Assembly: GCF_900115365.1 (NCBI RefSeq)
Contig: NZ_FOWD01000035.1
Location: 1 to 41,633 of the forward strand
DNA length: 41,633 nucleotides
Direction of reading: 5' to 3'
Origin: Anaerocolumna aminovalerica
GTDB lineage: Bacteria > Bacillota > Clostridia > Lachnospirales > Lachnospiraceae
The position numbers and the translations under genes were made by a program. The notes under the pieces are model-generated. The model did no database searches and was not told the origin of the DNA. It saw nothing but the letters and a program-made list of their open reading frames with translations. Positions 13,252-34,568 of the stretch are shown piece after piece (position 1 is the stretch's first letter; each line of letters opens with the position of its first letter).

Positions 13252-13299
13252 AATAAGTAATGAGCCAAATTATAATATAAACATATTATTAAATGTATT

Positions 13300-13619
13300 G
13301 ATGGAGAGGATTAGATAAGTATTTCTTAGCAGAGAGGATAACTCCCAGGCTGAAAAGTTATCTTAATGAGAACTTATTGAAGGTAGCTCCTGAACAGTAT
13401 TTCTGAACAAAAACCATGTACAGTTTAGTAGGAAATAACGGTAAGCCCCGTTACAGGCTAAGAGGTTTGGTATAGACCAGACTTCAAGAGAGGTGATAAA
13501 AATTGTAACTTATTAAGAAAAAAGTATTTTCCTAATGCTTTTTTATATAAGCTATAAATTATCACGAATAAAGGTGGTACCACGGTCCTTCGTCCTTTAA
13601 AGACGAGGGCTTTTTTTGT
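13300..13619 (+). promoter_or_regulatory. T-box leader (valine-type) controlling valS
   Basis: The T-box sequence AAGGTGGTACCACGG (13571-13585) is a close variant of the family consensus. Its TGGT would pair with the 3' end of uncharged tRNA. It is followed by a terminator, CCTTCGTC/GACGAGGG plus a T-run (about 13588-13617), which the antiterminator would replace. Stem I features are visible at 13320-13400 (AGAGAGGATAACTCCC, GGCTGAAAAG, GAAGGTAGCTCCTGAAC). In the last of these, GTA at 13383-13385 is the likely valine specifier codon, consistent with valS downstream. T-boxes sense tRNA aminoacylation; specifier assignment is inferred from context, and stem pairing was only partly traced. Confidence 0.88.
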
Positions 13620-13636: not shown

Positions 13637-13665
13637 GGTGCTAAAGCACCGGAATCGAGGTTATT
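13637..13665 (+). promoter_or_regulatory. Start-codon leader hairpin motif, copy A (valS)
   Basis: GGTGC-TAAA-GCACC (13637-13650) forms a 5-bp hairpin with a tetraloop, followed by the 15-nt tract GGAATCGAGGTTATT and the valS ATG. The SD is the GAGG of the tract. The same hairpin-plus-tract, at identical distance from the start codon, precedes spoVAD and rarA in this window. The third base pair is T-A here and C-G in the other two, a compensatory change supporting RNA pairing. Confidence 0.65.
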
Positions 13666-16329
13666 ATGAAAAAAGAATTGGCTAAGACCTATGATCCTAA
13701 GGACATAGAAGACAGATTGTATAAAAAATGGCTGGATAAAAAGTATTTTCATGCCAAGGTGGATAAGACCAAAAAACCATTTACCATTGTGATTCCGCCG
13801 CCAAATATTACAGGACAATTACACATGGGACACGCATTGGATAACGCCATGCAGGATATTATTATTCGTTTTAAGAGAATGCAGGGATATAATGCGCTAT
13901 GGCAGCCGGGTACGGACCATGCCAGTATTGCTACGGAAGTTAAGATTATTGAACAACTGAAAAAAGAAGGTATTGATAAGGAAGACTTGGGAAGAGAAGG
14001 ATTTCTTAAGAGAGCATGGCAATGGAAGGATGAATACGGCGGAAGGATTATCGGTCAGTTAAAGAAGCTGGGCTCCTCCTGTGATTGGGACAGAGAAAGA
14101 TTTACCATGGATGAAGGCTGTTCCAGGGCGGTTCAGGAAGTATTTATCCGTCTTTATGAAAAAGGCTATATTTATAAAGGTTCCAGAATCATAAACTGGT
14201 GTCCGGTTTGCCAGACAAGTATATCCGATGCGGAAGTAGAACATGAAGAACAGTCAGGACATTTCTGGCATATTAAATATCCGGTTGTGGGATCGGGGGA
14301 TTTTGTAGAAATCGCTACTACAAGACCGGAAACCATGCTTGGTGATACAGCGGTAGCCGTTCATCCGGAGGATGACAGATACAAACACTTAATAGGCAAG
14401 AAAGTATTACTTCCAATTGTAAATAAAGAAATACCGGTTGTTGGGGATGCCTATGTTGACAAAGAATTTGGTACCGGTGTGGTTAAGATAACACCTGCCC
14501 ATGACCCAAATGACTTTGAAGTTGGTAAGAGACATAACCTGCCTGAAATCAATATTATGAACGATGATGCTACCATTAACACCAATGGAGGAAAATTCCA
14601 GGGACTTGACCGTTATGAGGCTAGAAAGAGAATCGTTAAAGAATTAGATGAATTAGGATTGCTGGTAAAGATTGAGGACCATGTTCATAATGTAGGTACT
14701 CATGACAGATGTAATACAACAGTAGAGCCGTTAATCAAACAGCAATGGTTCGTTAAGATGGATGAGTTGATCAAACCTGCTGTTGAGGCGGTTAAGACCG
14801 GAGAAATTCAATTTGTACCGGAACGTTTTGATAAAATCTATTTTAACTGGACCGATAATATCAGAGACTGGTGTATATCCAGACAATTATGGTGGGGACA
14901 TAGAATTCCTGCTTATTACTGTGATAAATGCGGAGAAGTGGTAGTTTCCAAAGATGCTCCTGAAGTATGTCCAAAATGCGGTCACACTCATTTAACACAA
15001 GATGAAGATACGCTGGATACCTGGTTTAGTTCCGCTTTATGGCCATTCTCAACTTTAGGTTGGCCGGAAGAAACAGAAGATTACAAGTACTTTTACCCAA
15101 CCAATGTATTAGTAACCGGTTATGATATTATCTTCTTCTGGGTTATCCGCATGGTATTCTCAGGATTTGAATATACCGGGAAAGCGCCTTTTAATAAAGT
15201 ATTAATCCATGGACTGGTAAGAGATGCTCAGGGACGTAAGATGAGCAAATCCCTTGGAAATGGCATTGATCCATTAGAAATCATTGATCAATACGGTGCA
15301 GATGCTTTAAGATTAACCTTGATAACCGGTAATGCTCCCGGCAATGATATGCGCTTCTATATGGAAAGAGTAGAAGCCAGCAGAAACTTTGCCAATAAAG
15401 TATGGAATGCCTCCAGATTCATTATGATGAATCTGGAGAAAGCTAGGACCAGTGATAATATTGATCCTAAGGCATTAACGGATGCTGATAAATGGATTCT
15501 TTCTAAGGCAAATTCTTTAGTGAGAGAAGTTACAGATAACATGGAAAACTTTGAACTGGGTGTTGCGGTTCAGAAAATTTATGATTTTATCTGGGAAGAA
15601 TTCTGCGACTGGTATATTGAGATGGTTAAACCAAGGCTTTATAGTGATACGGATGAAACAAAAGCAGGTGCTATATGGACTTTAAAACAGGTTCTCACTA
15701 CCTCTTTAAAATTATTACATCCATATATGCCATTTGTAACAGAAGAAATTTACTGTACCTTAAAAGAAATGGAAGATTCTAATCCAGATGATGGCTCCAT
15801 CATGATATCGGAATGGCCGGTATATGATAAAGAAATGAATTATTCAAAAGAAGAGGAAGCAGTTGAAACTATAAAAGCTGCAGTAAAAGGAATTCGTAAT
15901 GTTCGTACTGAAATGAATGTTCCACCAAGCAGAAAGGCTAATGTGTACGTTGTTTCAGAAAAGGATAACCTTCGCAGCATCTTTGAAGGCAGTAAAGTAT
16001 TCTTTGCAACCTTAGGATATGCGGCAGAAGTTTTCATCCAAAAGGATAAGGCTGGAATATCCGATGATGCAGTAACGGCAGTTATTCCGGAAGCTACTAT
16101 TTATATGCCATTTGCTGATTTGGTAGATACCGAAAAAGAAATCGAACGTCTGGAGAAAGAAAAAGCCAGATTAGAAGGGGAATTAAAGCGTGTTAATGGT
16201 ATGCTAAGCAATGAAAAATTCGTAAGCAAGGCTCCGGAAGCTAAAATAGCGGAAGAAAAGGAAAAATTAGAGAAGTATACTAACATGATGAACCAGGTAA
16301 CGGAAAGACTTGCCTATTTTAGGAAATAA
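13666..16329 (+). CDS. valS: Valine--tRNA ligase
   Basis: Class Ia aminoacyl-tRNA synthetase charging tRNA-Val. HIGH-type signature HMGH (53-56, in [17 protein letters not shown]) and KMSKS (525-529, [10 protein letters not shown]) are present. The editing (CP1) domain includes [18 protein letters not shown] and [19 protein letters not shown], which hydrolyses mis-charged threonine. A zinc-type pair CxxC (Cys419/422 and Cys435/438) sits in the catalytic insert. The C-terminal 65 residues form the valyl-tRNA synthetase coiled coil ([20 protein letters not shown]). At 887 residues it is full length. The specificity-defining NWC and [15 protein letters not shown] elements separate ValRS from IleRS and LeuRS. 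Regulated by the upstream T-box. Confidence 0.97.
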
Positions 16330-22270: not shown

Positions 22271-22351
22271 AGGAAATATCTTCACATTTGGAAGAAACTC
22301 CAAAATGGATTTGTTGAAATTTGATTTTGAACTTCTTCGTACATTATTCGA

Positions 22352-22424
22352 AAGCAATTTTTGCCTGTAGCAATAAGTTGCTGTCGTCATTAAAAGGCGC
22401 TGAAGCGCTGGAATCGAGGTTAGA
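22352..22424 (+). promoter_or_regulatory. Start-codon leader hairpin motif, copy B (spoVAD)
   Basis: Bases 22376-22424 match the leader of rarA at 43 of 49 positions with no gap, though the genes are unrelated. The core hairpin is GGCGC-TGAA-GCGCT (22396-22409), followed by the 15-nt tract GGAATCGAGGTTAGA and the ATG at 22425. Upstream, AGCAA/TTGCT (22369-22382) can form a second small hairpin. Similarity to copy C continues more weakly to about 22352 (CAATTT, then GCCTG versus GCTGC). Confidence 0.7.
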
Positions 22425-23489
22425 ATGTCTGAACAAAATATGACCAATAACAAAATAGCTGGAAAGCAAAGTATACTTTTCGAAAATCCTCCTTTAATTC
22501 TATCCGGTTCTTCTATTGCGGGAAAAAAGGAAGGTGAAGGTCCTTTGGGAAGTTTCTTTGATGAAATTGAAGAAGATCCTATGGCAGGTGGTAAGACCTG
22601 GGAAGATGCAGAGAGCAGATTAATGAAACGGGCAGCAGAAAAAGCTATTGAAAAAGCAGGTTTAACGAATCAGGATATTCGTTTTTTAATAGGCGGAGAT
22701 TTATTGGGACAACTAATTGCCACATCCTTTGGAATTGTCAGCCTTGAAATACCTATGTTCGGAGTATATGGGGCATGTTCTACTATGGGTGAATCTATGG
22801 CCCTTGGAGCAATTTTAGTAGATGGAGGCTATGCAGATAAAGTAATAGCAATTACCTCCAGTCATTTTGCAGGTGCAGAAAAACAATTTCGCTTTCCTTT
22901 GGGTTATGGCAATCAAAGACCCCTTTCGGCAACCTGGACGGTAACAGGAAGCGGAGCAGTAGTAATTGGGAAAAATGAATCAAAAGATAAAAATAAACAT
23001 AAGAAAAAAGAAAAAAATGTAGTTATTAAAGGTATAACAGTAGGTAAAATTGTAGATTATGGTCTGAAAGATTCTATGAATATGGGAGCGTGTATGGCAC
23101 CTGCGGCATATACTACTATATCACAAAATCTAAAGGATATAAATCAACTGCCGCTCTACTATGATAAAATCATTACAGGTGATCTTGGAAGTGTGGGTAA
23201 AGATATTTTAATTGACTTATTAAAAGAGGATGGTTTTGATATTAGCAGTAATTTTATGGACTGCGGAATGGAAATTTTTGATCAAGATTCTCAGGATACC
23301 CATGCAGGCGGAAGCGGATGCGGATGCAGTGCTATTACACTAACAGGATACATTTTGGATAAAATGAGACGGGGAGAATGGAATAGGGTATTATTTGTAC
23401 CCACCGGTTCTTTACAGTCTACTGTAAGCTTTAACGAAGGCAATTCCATCCCGGGAATCGCTCACGGTATTATACTTGAGACTTGCTAA
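22425..23489 (+). CDS. spoVAD: Stage V sporulation protein AD
   Basis: 354-residue thiolase-fold protein that binds dipicolinic acid on the outer face of the forespore inner membrane. SLEIPMFGVYGACSTMGESM (the equivalent of the thiolase nucleophile region), ITSSHFAGAEKQFRFPLGYG, TGSGAVVIG and DTHAGGSGCGCSAIT are SpoVAD hallmarks. There is no membrane segment, as expected. A lysine-rich insert (KDKNKHKKKEKN, about residues 186-199) extends one loop. The start at ATG 22425 is fixed by GAGG 8 nt upstream, part of a conserved leader. It follows spoVAC after an unusual 154-nt gap, so it may be translated or transcribed at its own level. Confidence 0.96.
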   Translation: MSEQNMTNNKIAGKQSILFENPPLILSGSSIAGKKEGEGPLGSFFDEIEEDPMAGGKTWEDAESRLMKRAAEKAIEKAGLTNQDIRFLIGGDLLGQLIATSFGIVSLEIPMFGVYGACSTMGESMALGAILVDGGYADKVIAITSSHFAGAEKQFRFPLGYGNQRPLSATWTVTGSGAVVIGKNESKDKNKHKKKEKNVVIKGITVGKIVDYGLKDSMNMGACMAPAAYTTISQNLKDINQLPLYYDKIITGDLGSVGKDILIDLLKEDGFDISSNFMDCGMEIFDQDSQDTHAGGSGCGCSAITLTGYILDKMRRGEWNRVLFVPTGSLQSTVSFNEGNSIPGIAHGIILETC

Positions 23490-23510
23490 GCAAGTAGATA
23501 GGAGTAGATT

Positions 23511-23867
23511 ATGGACTATTTAATAGCATTTTTAGTAGGCGGAGGAATCTGTGCAGTAGTACAAATTTTTATGGATAACACCAAACTTATGCCCGGAAGA
23601 ATTATGGTTATTCTGGTATGCCTTGGAGCAATTCTAGGTGCAATTGGAGTTTATGAACCTTTTGCAAAATGGGCTGGTGCAGGTGCAACGGTTCCACTTG
23701 TTGGTTTTGGTAATGCGCTGTTTAAGGGAATTAAAGAGGGTATTATGAAAGAAGGATTCATTGGTGTATTTAAGGGTGGATTTACAGCATCTGCAGTAGG
23801 AATTTCGGCGGCATTAATCTTTGCATATTTAGCTTCTCTTATATTTAATCCAAAGATGAAAAGTTAA
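23511..23867 (+). CDS. spoVAE: Stage V sporulation protein AE
   Basis: 118-residue membrane protein with about three to four helices. AFLVGGGICAVVQIFMDNTKLMPGRIMV, then KWAGAGATVPLVGFGNALFKGI and FTASAVGISAALIFAYLASLIF are typical of SpoVAE (the SpoVAEB type). The GAGATVPLVGFGN loop parallels SpoVAC, and the two probably contact each other in the channel. ATAGGAG lies about 9 nt before ATG 23511, and only 21 nt separate it from spoVAD. No spoVAF or gerA-like gene follows; the next gene is on the other strand. Confidence 0.95.
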   Translation: MDYLIAFLVGGGICAVVQIFMDNTKLMPGRIMVILVCLGAILGAIGVYEPFAKWAGAGATVPLVGFGNALFKGIKEGIMKEGFIGVFKGGFTASAVGISAALIFAYLASLIFNPKMKS

Positions 23868-23880
23868 ATTCAGATATTTC

Positions 23881-24000
23881 AAGCAGTATGGTATACCTTA
23901 ATATTAAGAGAATCCAATTAACTTGTTAATCATATTACTAGATGTGTTTGAAAGCGTATGGTTTTTTAATTACTATAGAAAGGTATACTGTCTGCTTTTA
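23881..24000 (+). terminator. Long-span inverted repeat after spoVAE
   Basis: AAGCAGTATGGTATACCTT (23881-23899) and AAGGTATACTGTCTGCTT (23980-23997) are imperfect inverted repeats about 80 nt apart, followed by TTTAAT. The arrangement resembles the long-loop terminator after trpA. Termination is inferred from position; the core paired part is GTATACCTT/AAGGTATAC. Confidence 0.45.
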
Positions 24001-24016
24001 ATATAGATTAGCAAAA

Positions 24017-24041
24017 CAGAAGGGGCAAATTGCCCCTTCTG
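24017..24041 (-). terminator. Terminator of the penicillin-binding protein gene
   Basis: CAGAAGGGGCAA/TTGCCCCTTCTG is a perfect 12-bp palindrome. Read on the minus strand it is followed by TTTTGCT, and it lies 10 nt past the stop codon of the minus-strand gene. Confidence 0.8.
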
Positions 24042-24050
24042 GTAAATAAT

Positions 24051-26726
24051 CTAATAATTATAGTTAAATATATCTGGAAATTCAGATTCTGTGTTATCTT
24101 CTTCCGTTTCGTCTTCTCCTTCTTCTTCTCCCGGATTAGAAGGCAGATTCGGATCTGGAGTAACAGGCGGATAAGGTGGTATTATAGAGTTTCCGGCTGT
24201 GTGTACATCACAAGTTTCTGTAGGTAAAATATTTGGAGTATCATGGGTTGCATGAGTTTCTTCTTTAACTAAATAAACTTGTTCTTTTGTAGAAGACGGA
24301 GGACAAAACTCTGTTGCAATTTTTCCTGAGTCTTTACATATGGAAGCCTTTACGTGCATATCACATTTTTCAGTGGGAACAGTTCCTTTTGCAAAGTATT
24401 CTGTTTTTACTGTAGAGCCTCCGATATAATGATCACATAATCCTTCTACGGCCAATTTTCCGCTCTTTGTACATATTTTAGCAGTAACTATAGAATCCGG
24501 TATAGTAAATGGAACATTTTTAAGTTCTTTTTGAATGTGAATTTGTTCCATTACATCACGCCATATACGTTTGTGATAGCTTTTATCAACTTGAGAGCGG
24601 TTATTATCGAATCCGGACCATATGGTAGCGGTATAGTATGGTGTGTATCCGGAGAACCATAAGTCGTTATCATCAGAGGTTGTACCGGTCTTACCTGCAA
24701 TAGGCATTTGAATCTTAGGGAATCTAACTGCTGTACCGGTACCTATTTTAACTACGTCTTCCATTGCATTTGTTAAAAGGAAAGATGTAGATTCTTTCAT
24801 AACCTGGCGAGTGATAGGTTTTTTCTCTAATAATACCTTACCGTCATGGTCTAAAATCTTAGTATAAAAAGTGGGTTCTGTATAAATACCGCTATTGGCT
24901 ATGGAAGCCATAGCACCTGTTAACTCAAGGTTTGATACACCGTCTGTTATACCTCCAAGAGCGGTGGATAAGTTAATATCGGAATAAGGTCTTCCATTAC
25001 TATCAGTTCTGCTATCTACCAAGGTAGTAAATCCAAGTTTTTGCAAATAATCAAAACCAACTTGTGGTGTTACCTGATTTAAAGTCTTAACCGTAACAAC
25101 ATTCATGGAACGGTATATTGCTCTTCTTAATGTAGTCAGACCTTCATAAACATTTTTATTCCAGTTTGAAACATACTTTGAAGTGCCGGGATATTGGAAG
25201 GGGGCATCGTCAATAACACTTGTTAATGTCATCCCTGCTGAATCCAAAGCAGGAAGATAAGTTGATAGGATTTTGAATACGGAACCCGGCTGCCTTACGG
25301 TGTTAGTAGCACGGTTAAGAGTTCTGTTTCCTGTTTTTGTACCACGTCCGCCAATAAGTCCCACTACCTGACCGGTGGATTGATCAATAATAACCATGGA
25401 GGATTGAGGTTGTAATATCAAACTGGTATTTTCACCCAATATTATATCGTCTTCCTTTAACTTAGCTTCTTTAAATTCCTTAATCAGCTTCAATGCATCT
25501 TCTTTATCAGAAAAATAAGAAAAGTTTTTGCTGGTAGATCCTGCAAATTCTTTTAAATCACTATTGTGATAATGTATGGTTTCCCCCTTGGATGTTTCAA
25601 TGGATAAAGCATAGTTTAATTCCCAATAGGAAGTAGAACCTACTTTAGGAAAATAATCCGGATTGGAATATACATTATCTAATACTTTTTGTACATCGGA
25701 ATCCAGAGTAGTGTATATGCTTAAACCTCCGCTGTATAAAGCTTTACTTGCTTGAGTATAAGTATATCCTTTTTCTGTTTGTAAATCTTCAAGAGCTTGT
25801 TCAATTAATTCATCTACAAAATAACTGTAGTAAGACTCATCTGCCTTTTCTTCGTTAACAGATTGAATTCTGGAATAAACGTCATCTTCCATAGCTTTGT
25901 TGTATTCTTCCTCAGTACAATGACCAAGGCGAAGCATGCTATTTAAAACTTCAGCTCGACGTTTTGCATTATTTTCTTTGTGATTAATTGGATTCATATA
26001 CGTAGGTGACTGTGCAATTGAAGCGATTACAGCAGCTTCTGATAAATTCAATTGTCCTACATCTTTATTAAAGTAACGTCTGGAGGCTGTCTGCACACCA
26101 TAACTTCCTGCACCAAGATTGATGTTGTTCAGGTAATATTCTAATATAAGGTCTTTATCTAATTTATCTTCCAGCTGTATAGCTAAATACTGTTCCTGAA
26201 TCTTTCTTATAAAACGATCGGTAAAATTATCCTCTGCGCCTCCGTCAAAGACCTGATTCTTAATAAGCTGCTGGGTTATAGTACTGGCACCTTCGTCAAA
26301 ATTTCCGTTACTTAAACCTGAGAAAAAGGCACGAAAGATACCTTTTACGTCCACACCATCGTGGCTATAGAATCTTTCATCTTCAATACTGATAAAAGCA
26401 TTGCGAACTACTTCAGGAATTTCATCTATTTTTACATATACACGATTGGATTCTGCACCAGCTAAAGATTGAATAAGATTACCGTCTTTATCATATATAT
26501 TGGTTGTAAAGCCATTCGGTTCAACGTTTATCTGATCAATGTCCGGAGCACTGTCAGCCAATCCCTTTAATATACCAAAGCCAGCAAAGGATCCTACTAT
26601 AGCCAAAAATACAATACCAACTAATAACATTCTAAAAAGAGAAACTCCAGCTTTGGAAGCAACTTTTCTAGAAGTAGATTTTATCTGTTGTTGTTTTTTT
26701 ATTGTTCCTTTTCTACTAAAGTCCAT
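24051..26726 (-). CDS. Class A penicillin-binding protein (glycosyltransferase plus transpeptidase)
   Basis: 891-residue bifunctional peptidoglycan synthase of the PBP1A/PonA type. A cytoplasmic basic tail, one membrane helix (about 31-52) and a GT51 domain come first, with catalytic Glu115 in SIEDERFYSHDGVD and GASTITQQLIKN (146-157). The transpeptidase has SxxK at Ser482-Lys485 (RQPGSVFK), SxN at 540-542 (SMN) and KTG(T) at 679-682. The C-terminal region contains spaced Cys pairs (KICTKSGKLAVEGLC, ASICKDSGKIATEFC) and an acidic Pro/Glu tail ending near PDIFNYNY. AAAGGAGG lies 9 nt before the ATG. It polymerises and cross-links glycan strands outside the membrane. Confidence 0.96.
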   Translation of the reverse strand: MDFSRKGTIKKQQQIKSTSRKVASKAGVSLFRMLLVGIVFLAIVGSFAGFGILKGLADSAPDIDQINVEPNGFTTNIYDKDGNLIQSLAGAESNRVYVKIDEIPEVVRNAFISIEDERFYSHDGVDVKGIFRAFFSGLSNGNFDEGASTITQQLIKNQVFDGGAEDNFTDRFIRKIQEQYLAIQLEDKLDKDLILEYYLNNINLGAGSYGVQTASRRYFNKDVGQLNLSEAAVIASIAQSPTYMNPINHKENNAKRRAEVLNSMLRLGHCTEEEYNKAMEDDVYSRIQSVNEEKADESYYSYFVDELIEQALEDLQTEKGYTYTQASKALYSGGLSIYTTLDSDVQKVLDNVYSNPDYFPKVGSTSYWELNYALSIETSKGETIHYHNSDLKEFAGSTSKNFSYFSDKEDALKLIKEFKEAKLKEDDIILGENTSLILQPQSSMVIIDQSTGQVVGLIGGRGTKTGNRTLNRATNTVRQPGSVFKILSTYLPALDSAGMTLTSVIDDAPFQYPGTSKYVSNWNKNVYEGLTTLRRAIYRSMNVVTVKTLNQVTPQVGFDYLQKLGFTTLVDSRTDSNGRPYSDINLSTALGGITDGVSNLELTGAMASIANSGIYTEPTFYTKILDHDGKVLLEKKPITRQVMKESTSFLLTNAMEDVVKIGTGTAVRFPKIQMPIAGKTGTTSDDNDLWFSGYTPYYTATIWSGFDNNRSQVDKSYHKRIWRDVMEQIHIQKELKNVPFTIPDSIVTAKICTKSGKLAVEGLCDHYIGGSTVKTEYFAKGTVPTEKCDMHVKASICKDSGKIATEFCPPSSTKEQVYLVKEETHATHDTPNILPTETCDVHTAGNSIIPPYPPVTPDPNLPSNPGEEEGEDETEEDNTESEFPDIFNYNY

Positions 26727-26748
26727 AAAAAACCTCCTTTATCCTGCC

Positions 26749-26757
26749 ATTATATCA
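26749..26757 (-). promoter_or_regulatory. Extended -10 promoter of the PBP gene
   Basis: On the minus strand TGA-TATAAT (26757-26749) is a consensus extended -10 element 23 nt before the PBP start codon. The -35 region is AT-rich (TTTATT-like) and not conserved, as is common with extended -10 promoters. Confidence 0.6.
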
Positions 26758-26834
26758 AATATATAATATAAAATAAAGATAAATTTGTAGATCAGATGAA
26801 TCTTAAAACTTTTTTAAAAGTTTCCTAATATATT

Positions 26835-26884
26835 AAATGATTAAGGTATTACAAAGAGTGTTGACTTTGTGACCTTAATCATTT
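26835..26884. terminator. Stem-loop downstream of the YigZ gene
   Basis: AAATGATTAAGGT (26835-26847) pairs with ACCTTAATCATTT (26872-26884), with an inner ACAAAG/CTTTGT stem. The stem is long and perfect but neither side has a good T-run. It lies 36 nt past the stop of the minus-strand YigZ gene, so it may end that transcript or protect its 3' end. Confidence 0.55.
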
Positions 26885-26919
26885 GATAACCTATACAATT
26901 AGTATTCCCTAATTATGTA

Positions 26920-27576
26920 TTATAATATCAATACCGAATGATTCATAATTGCATAGGAAACATTACCCGAGTTTATGATAACGGCTTTACCATTGGTTGC
27001 TTCAACCACTTTTTTCTCAAATTGCTCATAAAGTTCTATAGGTACTAAATTGGTCATAACAACAATATCTGTATACTCCGTATCCAATGTTGTAATTTCC
27101 ATTTGAGAAGTAATATATTGGAGTTTTCCAATGCCATTATAATCGGTAGTTATCTGAAGCTTGATACCGTTTAACTTCTCCAGAATAACACTGTTATTTA
27201 AACCTTCTTTTGCAGCACCCTGATAAGCCCTTACTAAACCCCCGGTACCTAATAAGGTTCCACCAAAATATCTGGTTACAACTAAGGCAGCATTATGTAT
27301 GCCTTCTCCCAGTAATACATCAAGCATAGGCCGGCCGGCGGTTCTGACCGGTTCTCCATCGTCGCTGCAGCGTTGAATTTCATTGTTATCCCCAATTACA
27401 TAGGCAAAACAGTTATGATTGGCATCGTAATATTTTTTCTTTGTCTGTTCTATAAATGTAATGGCTTCTTCTTCTGTATTTACCGGTACAACGGTGGCGA
27501 TAAATCTGGATTTTTTCTCTATGATTTCTCCGGTTCCGCCTTGGTAAACAATTCGAAAGGAATCTATTATAATCAT
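26920..27576 (-). CDS. yigZ: YigZ/YvyE family protein (IMPACT family)
   Basis: 218 residues. The N-terminal UPF0029/IMPACT domain has EIIEKKSRFIATVVPV, KYYDANHNCFAYVIG, RCSDDGEPVRTAGRPML and VTRYFGGTLLGTGGLVRAYQGAAKEGL, the full signature of the family. A C-terminal DUF1949 domain (about 140-205) follows. IMPACT relatives influence translation control in eukaryotes; the bacterial role is unsettled. AGGAG directly abuts the ATG at 27574-27576, leaving no spacer, so ATT or ATA codons just downstream are conceivable real starts. It follows the DUF4250 gene on the same strand by 50 nt, probably one transcript. Confidence 0.94.
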   Translation of the reverse strand: MIIIDSFRIVYQGGTGEIIEKKSRFIATVVPVNTEEEAITFIEQTKKKYYDANHNCFAYVIGDNNEIQRCSDDGEPVRTAGRPMLDVLLGEGIHNAALVVTRYFGGTLLGTGGLVRAYQGAAKEGLNNSVILEKLNGIKLQITTDYNGIGKLQYITSQMEITTLDTEYTDIVVMTNLVPIELYEQFEKKVVEATNGKAVIINSGNVSYAIMNHSVLIL

Positions 27577-27626
27577 CTCCTAATAAAATAATATTATTTT
27601 TCTAAACTAATAGAGACAGCCTAATT

Positions 27627-27803
27627 CTAAATAAATTTATTCTGAACGGGATCGTATTCATACTGAATCCCCTTTAAAGTTTCTTTCAAGCTTGTCTCAT
27701 CTATGTTAAGGCTTTTACACAGATCATCAAGGTTTTTATAGTGATCTCTTAAATAGGTGTTTATAAAACTTAATAATATTACAGGGTCTTGTGGAATTGT
27801 CAT
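27627..27803 (-). CDS. DUF4250 family small protein
   Basis: 58 residues: MTIPQDPVILLSFINTYLRD, then HYKNLDDLCKSLNIDE and a YEYDPVQNKF ending. This matches the DUF4250 family (MxLPxDPxxLLSxxNTxLRD opening, a short helical domain resembling a winged helix-turn-helix). GGAGG lies 7 nt upstream of the ATG (minus strand). A promoter is visible 30-60 nt upstream and yigZ lies 50 nt downstream. Function is unknown; DNA binding is only suggested by the helical pattern. Confidence 0.85.
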   Translation of the reverse strand: MTIPQDPVILLSFINTYLRDHYKNLDDLCKSLNIDETSLKETLKGIQYEYDPVQNKFI

Positions 27804-27833
27804 GTAATACCTCCAAAATGTATATTCATTGTT

Positions 27834-27861
27834 ATTTTAACATAAATAATCAGTAATTCAA
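27834..27861 (-). promoter_or_regulatory. Promoter of the DUF4250-yigZ transcript
   Basis: Minus strand: TTGAAT (27861-27856), a 16-nt spacer and TAAAAT (27839-27834) preceded by TG one base upstream (extended -10). It lies about 30 nt before the DUF4250 start and diverges from the rarA promoter. Confidence 0.55.
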
Positions 27862-27897
27862 GCAGAGGTAAGTAATCATTGGTTCAAATCCTATACA

Positions 27898-27926
27898 TTG
27901 ACGAAGATTATTTTATAGAATACAAT
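27898..27926 (+). promoter_or_regulatory. Promoter of rarA
   Basis: TTGACG (27898-27903), a 17-nt spacer and TACAAT (27921-27926) form a good sigma-A promoter. Transcription would start near 27933, giving a leader of about 100 nt that contains the conserved hairpin motif. Confidence 0.75.
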
Positions 27927-27961
27927 AAGTAAATAAGATAGAAAGAATAGTATACCCAACC

Positions 27962-28032
27962 GGCAATTTGGGCTGCCCCACAAAGTTGCTGTCGTTATTA
28001 AAAGGCGCTAAAGCGCTAGAATAGAGGTTATT
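27962..28032 (+). promoter_or_regulatory. Start-codon leader hairpin motif, copy C (rarA)
   Basis: Bases 27984-28032 are the counterpart of the spoVAD leader: same length, 43 of 49 identical, ending at the ATG. The hairpin is GGCGC-TAAA-GCGCT (28004-28017), then the tract AGAATAGAGGTTATT. Upstream, GCAA (27963-27966) can pair with TTGC (27986-27989). The leader lies inside the transcript from the promoter at 27898-27926, so it would be part of the mRNA. Confidence 0.7.
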
Positions 28033-29361
28033 ATGGATTTATTTGAATATATGAGAAGTAATACTATGGAGAAAGAATCCCCATTGGCTTCCAGATTACG
28101 CCCCACTACATTGGAAGAAGTAGTAGGGCAAAGCCATATTATTGGTAAGGACAAGTTGCTATATAGAGCAATCAAGGCGGATAAAATTAGCTCTATTATC
28201 TTTTATGGCCCTCCGGGTACAGGAAAAACTACCTTAGCACGGGTTATTGCCAATACCACCAGTGCTGTTTTTACTCAGATTAATGCTACTTCTGCCGGTA
28301 AAAAAGATATGGAGGAAGAAATTACCAAGGCAAAAAGCAATATGGGAATGTACGGTAAGAAAACAATCCTGTTTATTGATGAAATTCATCGTTTTAATAA
28401 AGGGCAGCAGGATTATTTATTGCCTTTTGTGGAAGATGGAACCATTATATTAATTGGAGCCACAACAGAGAACCCATACTTTGAAGTAAACAGCGCACTT
28501 ATTTCCCGCTCCATTATATTTGAATTAAAATCTTTAGAGCAGGAAGATATAAAAAAGCTTATTCTTAGAGCCTTAACGGACAAAGAAAAAGGAATGGGAG
28601 CATATAATGCTGTTATTGATGAGGAGGCATTGGACTTCCTTTCCCATATAGCAAATGGAGATGCCAGATCTGCATTAAATGCCATCGAATTAGGGGTTTT
28701 AACTACAGAACGCTCTGATGACGGGAGGATTCATATAACACTTGATGTTGCAAGTGAGTGCATTCAAAAGAGAGTAATCCGTTATGATAAAACCGGAGAC
28801 AATCATTATGATACCATATCGGCATTTATTAAAAGCATGAGAGGTTCCGATCCTGACGCAGCAATTTATTATCTGGCCCGAATGTTATATGCAGGAGAAA
28901 GTATTACATTTATAGCAAGAAGAATTATGATATGTGCAGCAGAAGACGTCTCTAATGCTGATCCTAATGCACTGGTGGTTGCCACAGCGGCAGCACAGGC
29001 AGTGGAACGGATTGGTATGCCGGAGGCTAAGATTATATTAGCTCAGGCTGTTTCGTATGTAGCTTGTGCTCCAAAAAGCAATTCAGCATGTTCAGCAATT
29101 GAAGTGGCACTGGAAGCGGTGAAAAATGAAAAAACCGCATCCATACCTTCTTATCTCATGGATGCTCATTATGGCGGAGCAAAAGAATTAGGACATGGAT
29201 TGGGTTATAAATATGCCCATAACTATAAAAATCATTACGTAAAACAGCAGTATTTGCCGGATGAATTAAAGGATAGAGTCTTTTACCAACCCTCCGGGCA
29301 GGGATATGAGAAAAAAATCATAGAACATCTAAAACGGATAAGGGAAGAGGCTGAGGAATAA
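28033..29361 (+). CDS. rarA: Replication-associated recombination protein A (RarA/MgsA)
   Basis: AAA+ ATPase of 442 residues related to clamp loaders and Mgs1/WRNIP1, acting at stalled replication forks. Walker A is GPPGTGKTT (59-67), Walker B LFIDEIHR (Asp116/Glu117), sensor 1 GATTENP and arginine finger SALISR. The C-terminal tetramerisation region contains DPDAAIYYLARMLYAGE, RRIMICAAEDV and PKSNSACSAIEVALEAV. ATG 28033 follows the conserved leader with GAGG 8 nt upstream. Alone on its transcript, after a divergent promoter region. Confidence 0.96.
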   Translation: MDLFEYMRSNTMEKESPLASRLRPTTLEEVVGQSHIIGKDKLLYRAIKADKISSIIFYGPPGTGKTTLARVIANTTSAVFTQINATSAGKKDMEEEITKAKSNMGMYGKKTILFIDEIHRFNKGQQDYLLPFVEDGTIILIGATTENPYFEVNSALISRSIIFELKSLEQEDIKKLILRALTDKEKGMGAYNAVIDEEALDFLSHIANGDARSALNAIELGVLTTERSDDGRIHITLDVASECIQKRVIRYDKTGDNHYDTISAFIKSMRGSDPDAAIYYLARMLYAGESITFIARRIMICAAEDVSNADPNALVVATAAAQAVERIGMPEAKIILAQAVSYVACAPKSNSACSAIEVALEAVKNEKTASIPSYLMDAHYGGAKELGHGLGYKYAHNYKNHYVKQQYLPDELKDRVFYQPSGQGYEKKIIEHLKRIREEAEE

Positions 29362-33098: not shown

Positions 33099-33989
33099 TC
33101 AGGATGGCTTACCTGTCAGTTCATTTAAACTACGCTGTCTTTTAAAAACACCCAATAGTATGGATACAAAATATGCCTTAATTGTGTTTCCAAGAATCTC
33201 TTCTATTACACGAGGTATCCATACTATTGTAAATGGAAGCAGCTTCCATGCAGTTAAGATTGTTTCACGCAATACAATGGTATTAAGTGTAGTTACAATC
33301 AGACCCGAACCAACCATAGTGATAAGAAGCTGAGGAATTTGTCCTTTTCCTGTGTCACGAAGGAACTTCTTTGATATAAAGAGGTCTGCGATCAGTAAAA
33401 GAATACCAAGAGCAGCGCTTCCAATGACTCCTGTCGTTACGAAAGAGATGTATGTACTTAGATTCCCTGATGGGTCCTTCGTATTGATTGTCCTGGTGAT
33501 AAGTGCCTTGCTGACAAAATGCATACTATCTGTATTTATGTTTTCTTTCTGTACATTTTCATAAAAATTTTTATTAATGCCATCGGCAGACAGAAATGCA
33601 ATGTTGCAGATTCCTACTACCAATAGGAACGCTGAGCATACTGCAATGGCAATTCTTAATTTCTTACTGTCTTTGTTTCTCAGAAAAGCCCATAATGTAC
33701 CCCTGATAAAACCGCCGGCAGCTACCACCAATGTCATAAGGGGAATATATGTCCCCATTGGCTTCAAAAGGTAGCCTAAAAGGTCAGTAAGTCCGTAGGT
33801 CGCGGCTCCATACACTGGTCCAAATAAAATGGCTGGCATTATGGAGAAAATACCAGAGATATCGATACTCATTCCATTTTGTCCAAATATGGGTATGTAA
33901 AAAGAAAATAATGTTTTCATAACTAATGAAATACTAAGAAATACCGCAGATATTGTAATGCGGCGCACATAAAAAGATGATTTTTTCAA
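33099..33989 (-). CDS. folT: Folate-type ECF transporter S component
   Basis: 296-residue membrane protein. The N-terminal half has the S-component pattern: RRITISAVFLSISLVMKTLF, then GMSIDISGIFSIMPAILFGPVYGAATYGLTDLLGYLL and PMGTYIPLMTLVVAAGGFIRGTLW. The GPVYGAATYGLTDLLGYL stretch is typical of the folate family. A polar insert of about 50 residues (128-180) breaks the usual helix order, and the C-terminal half adds several helices, so it is longer than a classical FolT. It would bind folate and pair with the shared EcfA/EcfT module, not encoded here. The start is TTG 33989 with GAGAGGAGAAG upstream. The THF riboswitch in its leader is the main support for folate. Confidence 0.8.
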   Translation of the reverse strand: MKKSSFYVRRITISAVFLSISLVMKTLFSFYIPIFGQNGMSIDISGIFSIMPAILFGPVYGAATYGLTDLLGYLLKPMGTYIPLMTLVVAAGGFIRGTLWAFLRNKDSKKLRIAIAVCSAFLLVVGICNIAFLSADGINKNFYENVQKENINTDSMHFVSKALITRTINTKDPSGNLSTYISFVTTGVIGSAALGILLLIADLFISKKFLRDTGKGQIPQLLITMVGSGLIVTTLNTIVLRETILTAWKLLPFTIVWIPRVIEEILGNTIKAYFVSILLGVFKRQRSLNELTGKPS

Positions 33990-34232: not shown

Positions 34233-34418
34233 AAAAAACACCTCCTGTTATGCAGCACAGCTACATAACAAGAGGTATTATAATAATACCGCTTCTCCTT
34301 ATGTAGCAGCGGGATGCGAACCTTGTACCGTAAGCCTTAAAGGCTTTTCGTTCCTCTGACAACTCCCCGTTCAGAAGACACTGCAAATCTTTGATTTACG
34401 CACAAAATCCTACTCTGC
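34233..34418 (-). promoter_or_regulatory. THF riboswitch with terminator, upstream of folT
   Basis: Read on the minus strand, the aptamer runs from GCAGAGTAGGATTTTGTGCG (34418-34399) through GAACGGGGAGTTGTC and GGAACGAAAAGCC to CGGTACAAGGTTCGCATCCC and GCTGC (ending 34306). These are the conserved blocks of the tetrahydrofolate riboswitch, and GCAG/CTGC closes P1. Downstream, 34275-34241 forms a 16-bp terminator stem ending in TGTTTTTT. An alternative antiterminator pairs CTACATAA (34306-34299) with TTATGTAG (34268-34261) around a GGTATTA/TAATACC hairpin. The two folds share 34261-34268 and exclude each other. High folate would be expected to reduce folT transcription. Confidence 0.82.
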
Positions 34419-34568
34419 TCATGATTCAAAATTGTTCCGAAATATCTTTGTGAATACGGAATGTAATAAAAATGCCCACCAATCCAAGCATCATGCCCAG
34501 ACGGTCGGCTTTGAAAGTGCTGTACTCCCGGTGGTTAATTCCACTTCCGCCAGTGATTCAGCACTTTA

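Follow-up and report, generated by a model that had tools for sequence, protein, structure and literature searches.

A Shine-Dalgarno-ended interspersed repeat, probably mobile, precedes spoVAD, rarA and many other genes of Anaerocolumna aminovalerica

The stretch of DNA analyzed here (the window) comprises 41,633 nucleotides (nt) of Anaerocolumna aminovalerica contig NZ_FOWD01000035.1 (GCF_900115365.1), one contig of a 4.62-Mb assembly, and includes the genes spoVAD, rarA and valS, the starts of which are preceded by related leader sequences. A preliminary description made from the letters of the window reported a gapless 49-nt leader common to spoVAD and rarA, and recomputing the alignment of 22376-22424 with 27984-28032 again gave 43 of 49 identical positions. 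A simple composition model of the window predicts approximately 6e-10 chance pairs of this quality. The weaker likeness described some 20 nt further upstream was likewise recovered, with 56/69 positions identical over 22359-22427 and 27967-28035. Both leaders end at a start codon, ATG 22425 of SpoVAD (PF07451) and ATG 28033 of RarA/MgsA (PF12002), and the third, shorter copy that had been counted precedes valS at 13637-13668, ending at ATG 13666 of ValS. These leaders are copies of a small (approximately 95 nt) non-coding interspersed repeat that is probably moving, or has recently moved, in this Lachnospiraceae lineage. The features of the three copies are listed below, the hairpins and Shine-Dalgarno (SD) sequences having been read directly from the DNA.

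13289-13600, + strand: T-box leader (RF00230, from Rfam), 5′ of the valS remnant and distinct from the repeat
13637-13650, + strand: hairpin C of the valS remnant (GGTGC TAAA GCACC; compensatory relative to GGCGC/GCGCC)
13657-13660, + strand: SD sequence GAGG of the valS remnant
22336-22419, + strand: covariance-model match of the spoVAD copy, 55.4 bits
22354-22381, + strand: hairpin B of the spoVAD copy (GCAATTTTTGC ... GCAATAAGTTGC)
22396-22409, + strand: hairpin C of the spoVAD copy (GGCGC TGAA GCGCT), also supported by covariation in stem C
22416-22419, + strand: repeat-borne SD sequence GAGG, 5 nt from the spoVAD start codon
22425-23489, + strand: spoVAD coding sequence (open reading frame; PF07451)
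27898-27926, + strand: candidate sigma-A-like rarA promoter (TTGACG, 17 nt, TACAAT; by eye), 5′ of the repeat
27936-28027, + strand: whole rarA repeat copy with hairpin A decayed (covariance model, 64.7 bits)
27962-27990, + strand: hairpin B of the rarA copy
28004-28017, + strand: hairpin C of the rarA copy (GGCGC TAAA GCGCT), also supported by covariation
28024-28027, + strand: repeat-borne SD sequence GAGG of the rarA copy
28033-29361, + strand: rarA coding sequence (open reading frame; PF12002)

The 5-bp hairpin previously noted in both leaders lies at 22396-22400/22405-22409 and 28004-28008/28013-28017, and each copy includes a single G-U pair. The 15-nt tract between this hairpin and the ATG, which had been called fixed, is alike between the two leaders and not identical, and the promoter proposed before rarA is plausible by eye (TTGACG at 27898, a 17-nt spacer and TACAAT at 27921). 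The 49-nt leader is the better-preserved 3′ part of the approximately 95-nt element, which also carries two further hairpins, B and A; hairpin B is recognizable at rarA and spoVAD, hairpin A has decayed at both, and the valS copy is reduced to hairpin C and the SD sequence. A unit is organized, in order, as TA, hairpin A (GGTTGAAAAAAC..GTTTTTTCAACC), hairpin B (GGCAATTTGTGC..GCACAAAGTTGCT), the linker TCGTTATTAAAA, hairpin C (GGCGC TAAA GCGCC) and the terminal AGAATCGAGGTTA, which in the 30 loci read is followed by two bases and then ATG.

Copies of this unit are numerous in the genome. BLAST with the 71-nt rarA leader returned 42 matches at E ≤ 10 (40 candidates scored), and a hidden Markov model ending at GAGG, and thus without the start codon, gave 102 matches in 78 loci, a few of which are other repeat families or antisense hairpins. 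A covariance model built from 59 complete copies of two genomes, again with the start codon left out, gave at least 114 matches at E ≤ 0.01 among 150 scored of 4100 first-look candidates, a figure that includes remnants as well as the model-building copies, which match by construction. Reading the DNA after all 114 matches located an open frame beginning 4-12 nt 3′ in 97 (94 ATG, 2 TTG and 1 GTG), and in 88 of these 97 the spacing after GAGG is exactly 5 nt. The remaining 17 matches comprise five that run into another unit, seven followed by ATG with a short frame or a frame cut by the end of the fetched stretch, and five followed by neither. A search for the pattern of hairpin C and SD sequence that left out the ATG and tolerated one mismatch gave 127 occurrences, as compared to one for a reversed control. 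The covariance-model search proposed in the preliminary description therefore produced numerous matches ending at start codons, with compensatory changes present, rather than copies lying mostly away from start codons without covariation, the outcome that was to have spoken against a functional element.

Compensatory change was assessed on the 59 copies, in which 89.3% of the cells of the helices pair, 13 pairs are changed on both sides against 7.3 in shuffles, and the covariation score of 0.136 (0.101 shuffled) is reached by none of 500 shuffles; hairpins A and B were scored on a structure named from the very same sequences, and these counts lean towards it. A control with the helices slid by -3 gave 14 two-sided changes, yet only 38.8% of its cells paired and its score was 0.065. 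L032 (a duplicate of L003) was left out, as were L029 from alignment A1 and L033, L035, L037 and incomplete copies from alignment A2. Covariation is clearest at the third pair of hairpin C (C-G in 39 copies, U-A in 12), and across all 114 matches pairs 1, 3 and 4 of this hairpin lie above every shuffle, whereas pairs 2 and 5 do not. RNAalifold on alignment A2 proposed only four hairpin C pairs; hairpin A is badly gapped in this MAFFT alignment. Weak-scoring copies have mostly lost A and B and retain hairpin C and the SD sequence, with all five C pairs present in 28/46. This retention in old copies suggests a benefit of hairpin C, which might stabilize the mRNA or hold upstream structure off the SD sequence, for example.

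The compensatory changes in A, B and C, the persistence of hairpin C with the SD sequence and the position of nearly all copies in translation initiation regions would suit a cis-regulatory RNA whose hairpins gate the adjoining SD sequence on binding a protein, small RNA or metabolite, the copies spreading as many genes profit from it. This explanation is unlikely. The downstream proteins scanned, 30 of the 70 listed (25 from the genome of the window and five from the sister Anaerocolumna genome G014) plus ValS, include RarA, FeoA, MreC, GlyS-like, AsnRS-like, DinB, SpoVAD, HolA and fumarase, together with LacI and GntR regulators, transporters, GalK, Hsp33, LeuB-like, YqeY and others, the short names being readings of Pfam domains, and no common pathway stands out among these 31. 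Folding exposes the SD sequence to the same extent as in shuffled leaders (Wilcoxon p 0.48 and 0.72). By eye, loop B could form a pseudoknot with the 3′ arm of hairpin C, most notably in L035 and L037; as a conserved feature this is not supported, the observed pairing in A2 being reached by 78 of 500 shuffles. In agreement with the earlier remark that no named motif fits, Rfam 15 gives no family over the leaders or over the elements of five further loci, a result that also argues against a described riboswitch.

Elsewhere in the window, Rfam matches are to T-box, THF and ZTP families. On the - strand at 34305-34567, ZMP/ZTP and THF riboswitches stand in tandem before the gene for an ECF transporter S component (33102-33989), and short repeated hairpins of the ACTTGCC..GGCAA type follow this riboswitch pair near the start codon.

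Comparison with the sister genome G014 identified sites with and without the repeat. Twenty-four gene starts of the genome of the window were sought in G014, of which 12 were found, and the reverse search with 18 G014 starts gave 13 matches, of which 12 were used (L209, a 47-nt match, was excluded); these 24 comparisons represent 22 distinct ortholog pairs. The repeat is present in both partners of 9/22 pairs and in one partner only in 13/22, a turnover that also counts against a regulatory RNA. In the best cases the empty site is exact. The empty glyS leader reads GAAAGGAATGAAAGTA|AGATGG (AAAGTA|AGATG), and the filled leader consists of identical letters with GTTTG...GAATCGAGGTTA at the bar, giving AAAGTA[repeat ending GAGGTTA]AGATG. 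The SD sequence of glyS came with the element, as the empty target has no GAGG. Likewise, the empty leaders of an EF-G-like gene, mreC and a D-lyxose isomerase gene read AGGTGATTA|ACATG (GATTA|ACATG), GGGAGGTTA|TTATG and GGAGGGAATTA|CAATG, respectively. In four further pairs the flanks align too poorly to place the insertion site. A long target-site duplication, in which the resident SD sequence would be fully doubled, was considered and rejected, since the resident AAAGTA of glyS differs from the element end GAGGTTA. TA occupies positions -4/-3 in 7/13 repeat-free orthologs (7/9 with alignable flanks) as compared to 2/24 repeat-free genes of the window (Fisher p 0.004 for 7/13).

In the other genomes of the genus, no match was found before the readable orthologs of glyS (10), mreC (13), rarA (12, the row of G006 having no visible start) or spoVAD (12). 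A gain of the repeat in the lineage of the window at these four genes would therefore be the simpler history. Several repeat-free orthologs in the genus carry other structured leaders instead, as judged by eye. Among the leaders of spoVAD, glyS and mreC in relatives, L097, L294 and L310 contain interleaved complementary arms (GAAAG..GCCAC..CTTTC..GTGGC) that by eye resemble H-type pseudoknots ahead of a hairpin and the start codon. The gene following spoVAD in G014 bears a copy of the repeat that also precedes spoVAD and rarA in the window (family 1; L077).

The occurrence of several units in a row at some loci, such as L039, might suggest that whole leaders were duplicated along with their genes in the expansion of gene families, with no movement at all. 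This is very improbable: empty sites contradict it, the proteins scanned downstream, transporters and regulators aside, are unrelated, and in most of 30 loci compared with one another the similarity does not reach beyond the repeat and the DNA next to it (L015 and L020 being alike over a longer stretch). The typical tandem junction reads GAGGTTA|GGTTG. Array length varies between orthologs, with two units (one partial) at L041 and three (one partial) at L186, and valS has the C-only remnant in the genome of the window versus two nearly complete units in G014.

After removal of 20/65 complete copies flagged as following another unit, 28/45 copies have an SD-like 4-mer within the final 12 nt of their left flank, versus three and four in two upstream control segments, and the left flank ends in TA in 35/45. 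Removing 11 more copies that stand behind another family or a decayed unit left an SD-like 4-mer in 20/34 (three and three in the controls) and TA in 27/34. TA is a known target of RUP repeats and of IS630-type elements, and copies landing in coding DNA would be lost, such that insertion at random TA sites, with selection retaining only those copies that leave a working SD sequence before a gene, might produce a similar distribution. The ends of RUP are described as resembling IS630-Spn1 (PMC3049150). Under random insertion, however, neutral intergenic DNA and 3′ flanks should hold many copies, and only 5/114 matches are without both a start codon and a following unit; neither the 5-nt spacing in 88/97 nor the single orientation of the copies relative to the gene is expected, and this alternative is slightly less likely still than a regulatory RNA. 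The sense orientation and the fixed position relative to the start codon would be explained by an RNA route, in which an mRNA acquires the repeat at its initiation region and a reverse transcriptase copies the product back to DNA. This route appears improbable, as the leftmost units of L062 and L074 appear to have lost A and B by internal deletion and not by 5′ truncation, and no hallmark of retrotransposition, such as a poly(A) stretch, is seen by eye at the 3′ junction.

Of the two possibilities raised in the preliminary description, the better one is a mobile repeat supplying ribosome-binding sites, supported by copy number, empty ortholog sites, tandem arrays and turnover between sister species. 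The other, a dispersed cis-acting RNA element, is the weaker, its compensatory changes standing against the diversity of pathways, the 13 differing pairs and the unremarkable SD exposure. The repeat enters in a single orientation, as a rule at a TA that lies two bases ahead of the start codon and directly 3′ of the resident SD sequence, which is displaced approximately 95 nt upstream and replaced by the GAGG of the element, five bases from the ATG; the borrowed SD sequence is presumably the one used in translation. Because a copy terminates on its right in GAGGTTA, which is similar to the target, new units can insert behind old ones to build tandem arrays, and ageing copies shed A and B and persist as hairpin C and the SD sequence. 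Movement would occur in trans, by an enzyme that may read the hairpin at the 5′ side together with an SD-like sequence that closes with TA.

Several observations weigh against a mobile repeat of this kind. A search limited to the Y1 family found no mobilizing transposase or recombinase whose ends match those of the repeat, and no terminal inverted repeats are evident by eye when the 5′ end GGTTGAAAA is compared with the reverse complement of the 3′ end TAACCTCGATTC. The compensatory changes indicate that structure has been maintained, whereas a purely parasitic sequence would have no need of it once inserted. Orthologs were assigned by best DNA match, and the empty sites of an ogg-like gene, L017 (nested), L068, L075 and L076 are inexact. 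TA is absent from positions -4/-3 in 6/13 repeat-free orthologs, and counting 7/13 beside 7/9 weakens the TA enrichment without removing it. TA stands at both ends of most filled sites, making a 2-bp duplication indistinguishable from the end of the element, and in a few copies the left and right flanks vary together (L010, with GAGGATA on both sides), a behavior left unexplained if the end belongs to the element.

The multi-copy IS200 of this genome was considered as the mobilizer and rejected, as the left ends of the IS200 copies read differ from the ends of the repeat. Positions 1-200 of the window contain the 3′ end of an IS200-type Y1 transposase, and many contig ends in the assembly carry fragments of this family.

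Within the genus, 10/15 genomes match the 101-nt consensus at E ≤ 0.001, with dozens of matches only in G014 (60) and in the genome of the window (47). Across the family, 7/299 genomes, including that of the window, match the model at E ≤ 1e-4 under strict filters with 14 candidates scored per genome. In 19 loci read from the six other family genomes, the letters have diverged, the order of hairpins is similar and hairpin C is absent in some; a start codon no more than 9 nt away opens at least 45 codons in 18/19, and the last has ATG with a short frame. Three of these divergent copies, L115, L120 and L124 in G186 of another genus, are nearly identical, a sign of recent movement. The pattern of hairpin C and SD sequence also occurs in 35 stretches of the named collection, 27 in an uncultured Anaerocolumna metagenome-assembled genome and eight in records of Lachnoclostridium phytofermentans. 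No match was found in phage and plasmid records with the 101-nt consensus, or in viral contigs with the exact pattern.

A second SD-ended family (GTGTGAATTATTG..CATAATTCACAC, CATCTGCAAGCAGATG, end AATGGGAGCTA; L268-L287) has matches in 12/15 genomes of the genus and is sometimes nested with family 1. Among 24 of its copies with a 3′ end, six have an ATG at 4 nt that opens at least 60 codons, two have an ATG whose frame is short, 13 precede another unit and three have neither. The leader of spoVAE (window 23480-23511) ends ACTTGCTAAGCAAGTAGATAGGAGTAGATTATG and by eye is like a remnant of a third SD-ended family (L206, and upstream in L061). Tentatively, and with rather less confidence than in mobility itself, the repeat may be one family of a mobile superfamily in several Lachnospiraceae genera, with shared traits (a 5′ hairpin starting GNNTGAA, and a 3′ SD sequence followed by TA) recognized by a single trans-acting machinery homing to the interval between SD sequence and start codon. 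Were this the case, gene starts would have been repeatedly colonized, and ribosome-binding sites replaced, throughout evolution.

If the repeat is mobile as proposed, a mobile element delivers interchangeable ribosome-binding sites to housekeeping genes (mreC, glyS, valS, rarA and dinB), and the interval between resident SD sequence and start codon is a spot at which an element can enter an essential gene without halting translation. The evolution of bacterial leaders would thereby become testable, with filled and empty orthologs serving as natural before-and-after pairs for the effects of SD replacement and of hairpin arrays, and a question of enzymology is raised as to what recognizes the site SD-TA-NN-ATG on DNA or RNA.

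The repeat is of a known kind, the small interspersed repeat, with a target and cargo not met in descriptions so far. The repeat would be the first mobile element known to us to use the SD sequence as target and cargo alike, and no description of SD-targeted repeats was found in the literature searched, which consisted of open-licence papers. TD-1 and TD-2 of Treponema denticola are repeated RNA motifs with a 3′ end that can overlap the SD sequence of unrelated genes, a trait in which they resemble the repeat. TD-2 gave a single sub-threshold Rfam match (E 0.88), antisense to a related element, and neither TD-1 nor TD-2 is mentioned in the main text of PMC2864571, as judged by a term search. 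Being short, non-coding and present in many copies (approximately 95 nt and at least 114 model matches in one genome), the repeat resembles miniature inverted-repeat transposable elements (MITEs). Correia elements and other TA-target MITEs are not known to be confined to one orientation or to start codons; the repeat shares with them TA at both ends, size and copy number, and differs in its lack of terminal inverted repeats, its one orientation and its position at start codons. The REP/PATE repeats moved by Y1 transposases (IS200/IS605, RAYT) have end hairpins, no inverted repeats, a fixed orientation to a short target and tandem units. The repeat likewise has hairpins near both ends, lacks inverted repeats, inserts beside a short fixed target in one orientation and forms tandem units; however, the Y1 transposases found in this genome are of the IS200 type, with ends unlike the repeat, and to our knowledge no member of REP/PATE targets the SD sequence. 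The BOX, RUP and SPRITE repeats of Streptococcus pneumoniae, judged parasitic by the authors of PMC3049150, are also small, structured, non-coding, modular and clustered, and insert into one another. One BOX forms a composite with two T-boxes (PMC3049150), and the valS copy described here stands behind a T-box. These pneumococcal repeats are not known to be tied to the interval between SD sequence and start codon, and the frames encoded by BOX are without good SD candidates (PMC3049150), whereas the repeat of A. aminovalerica ends in its own SD sequence at start codons.

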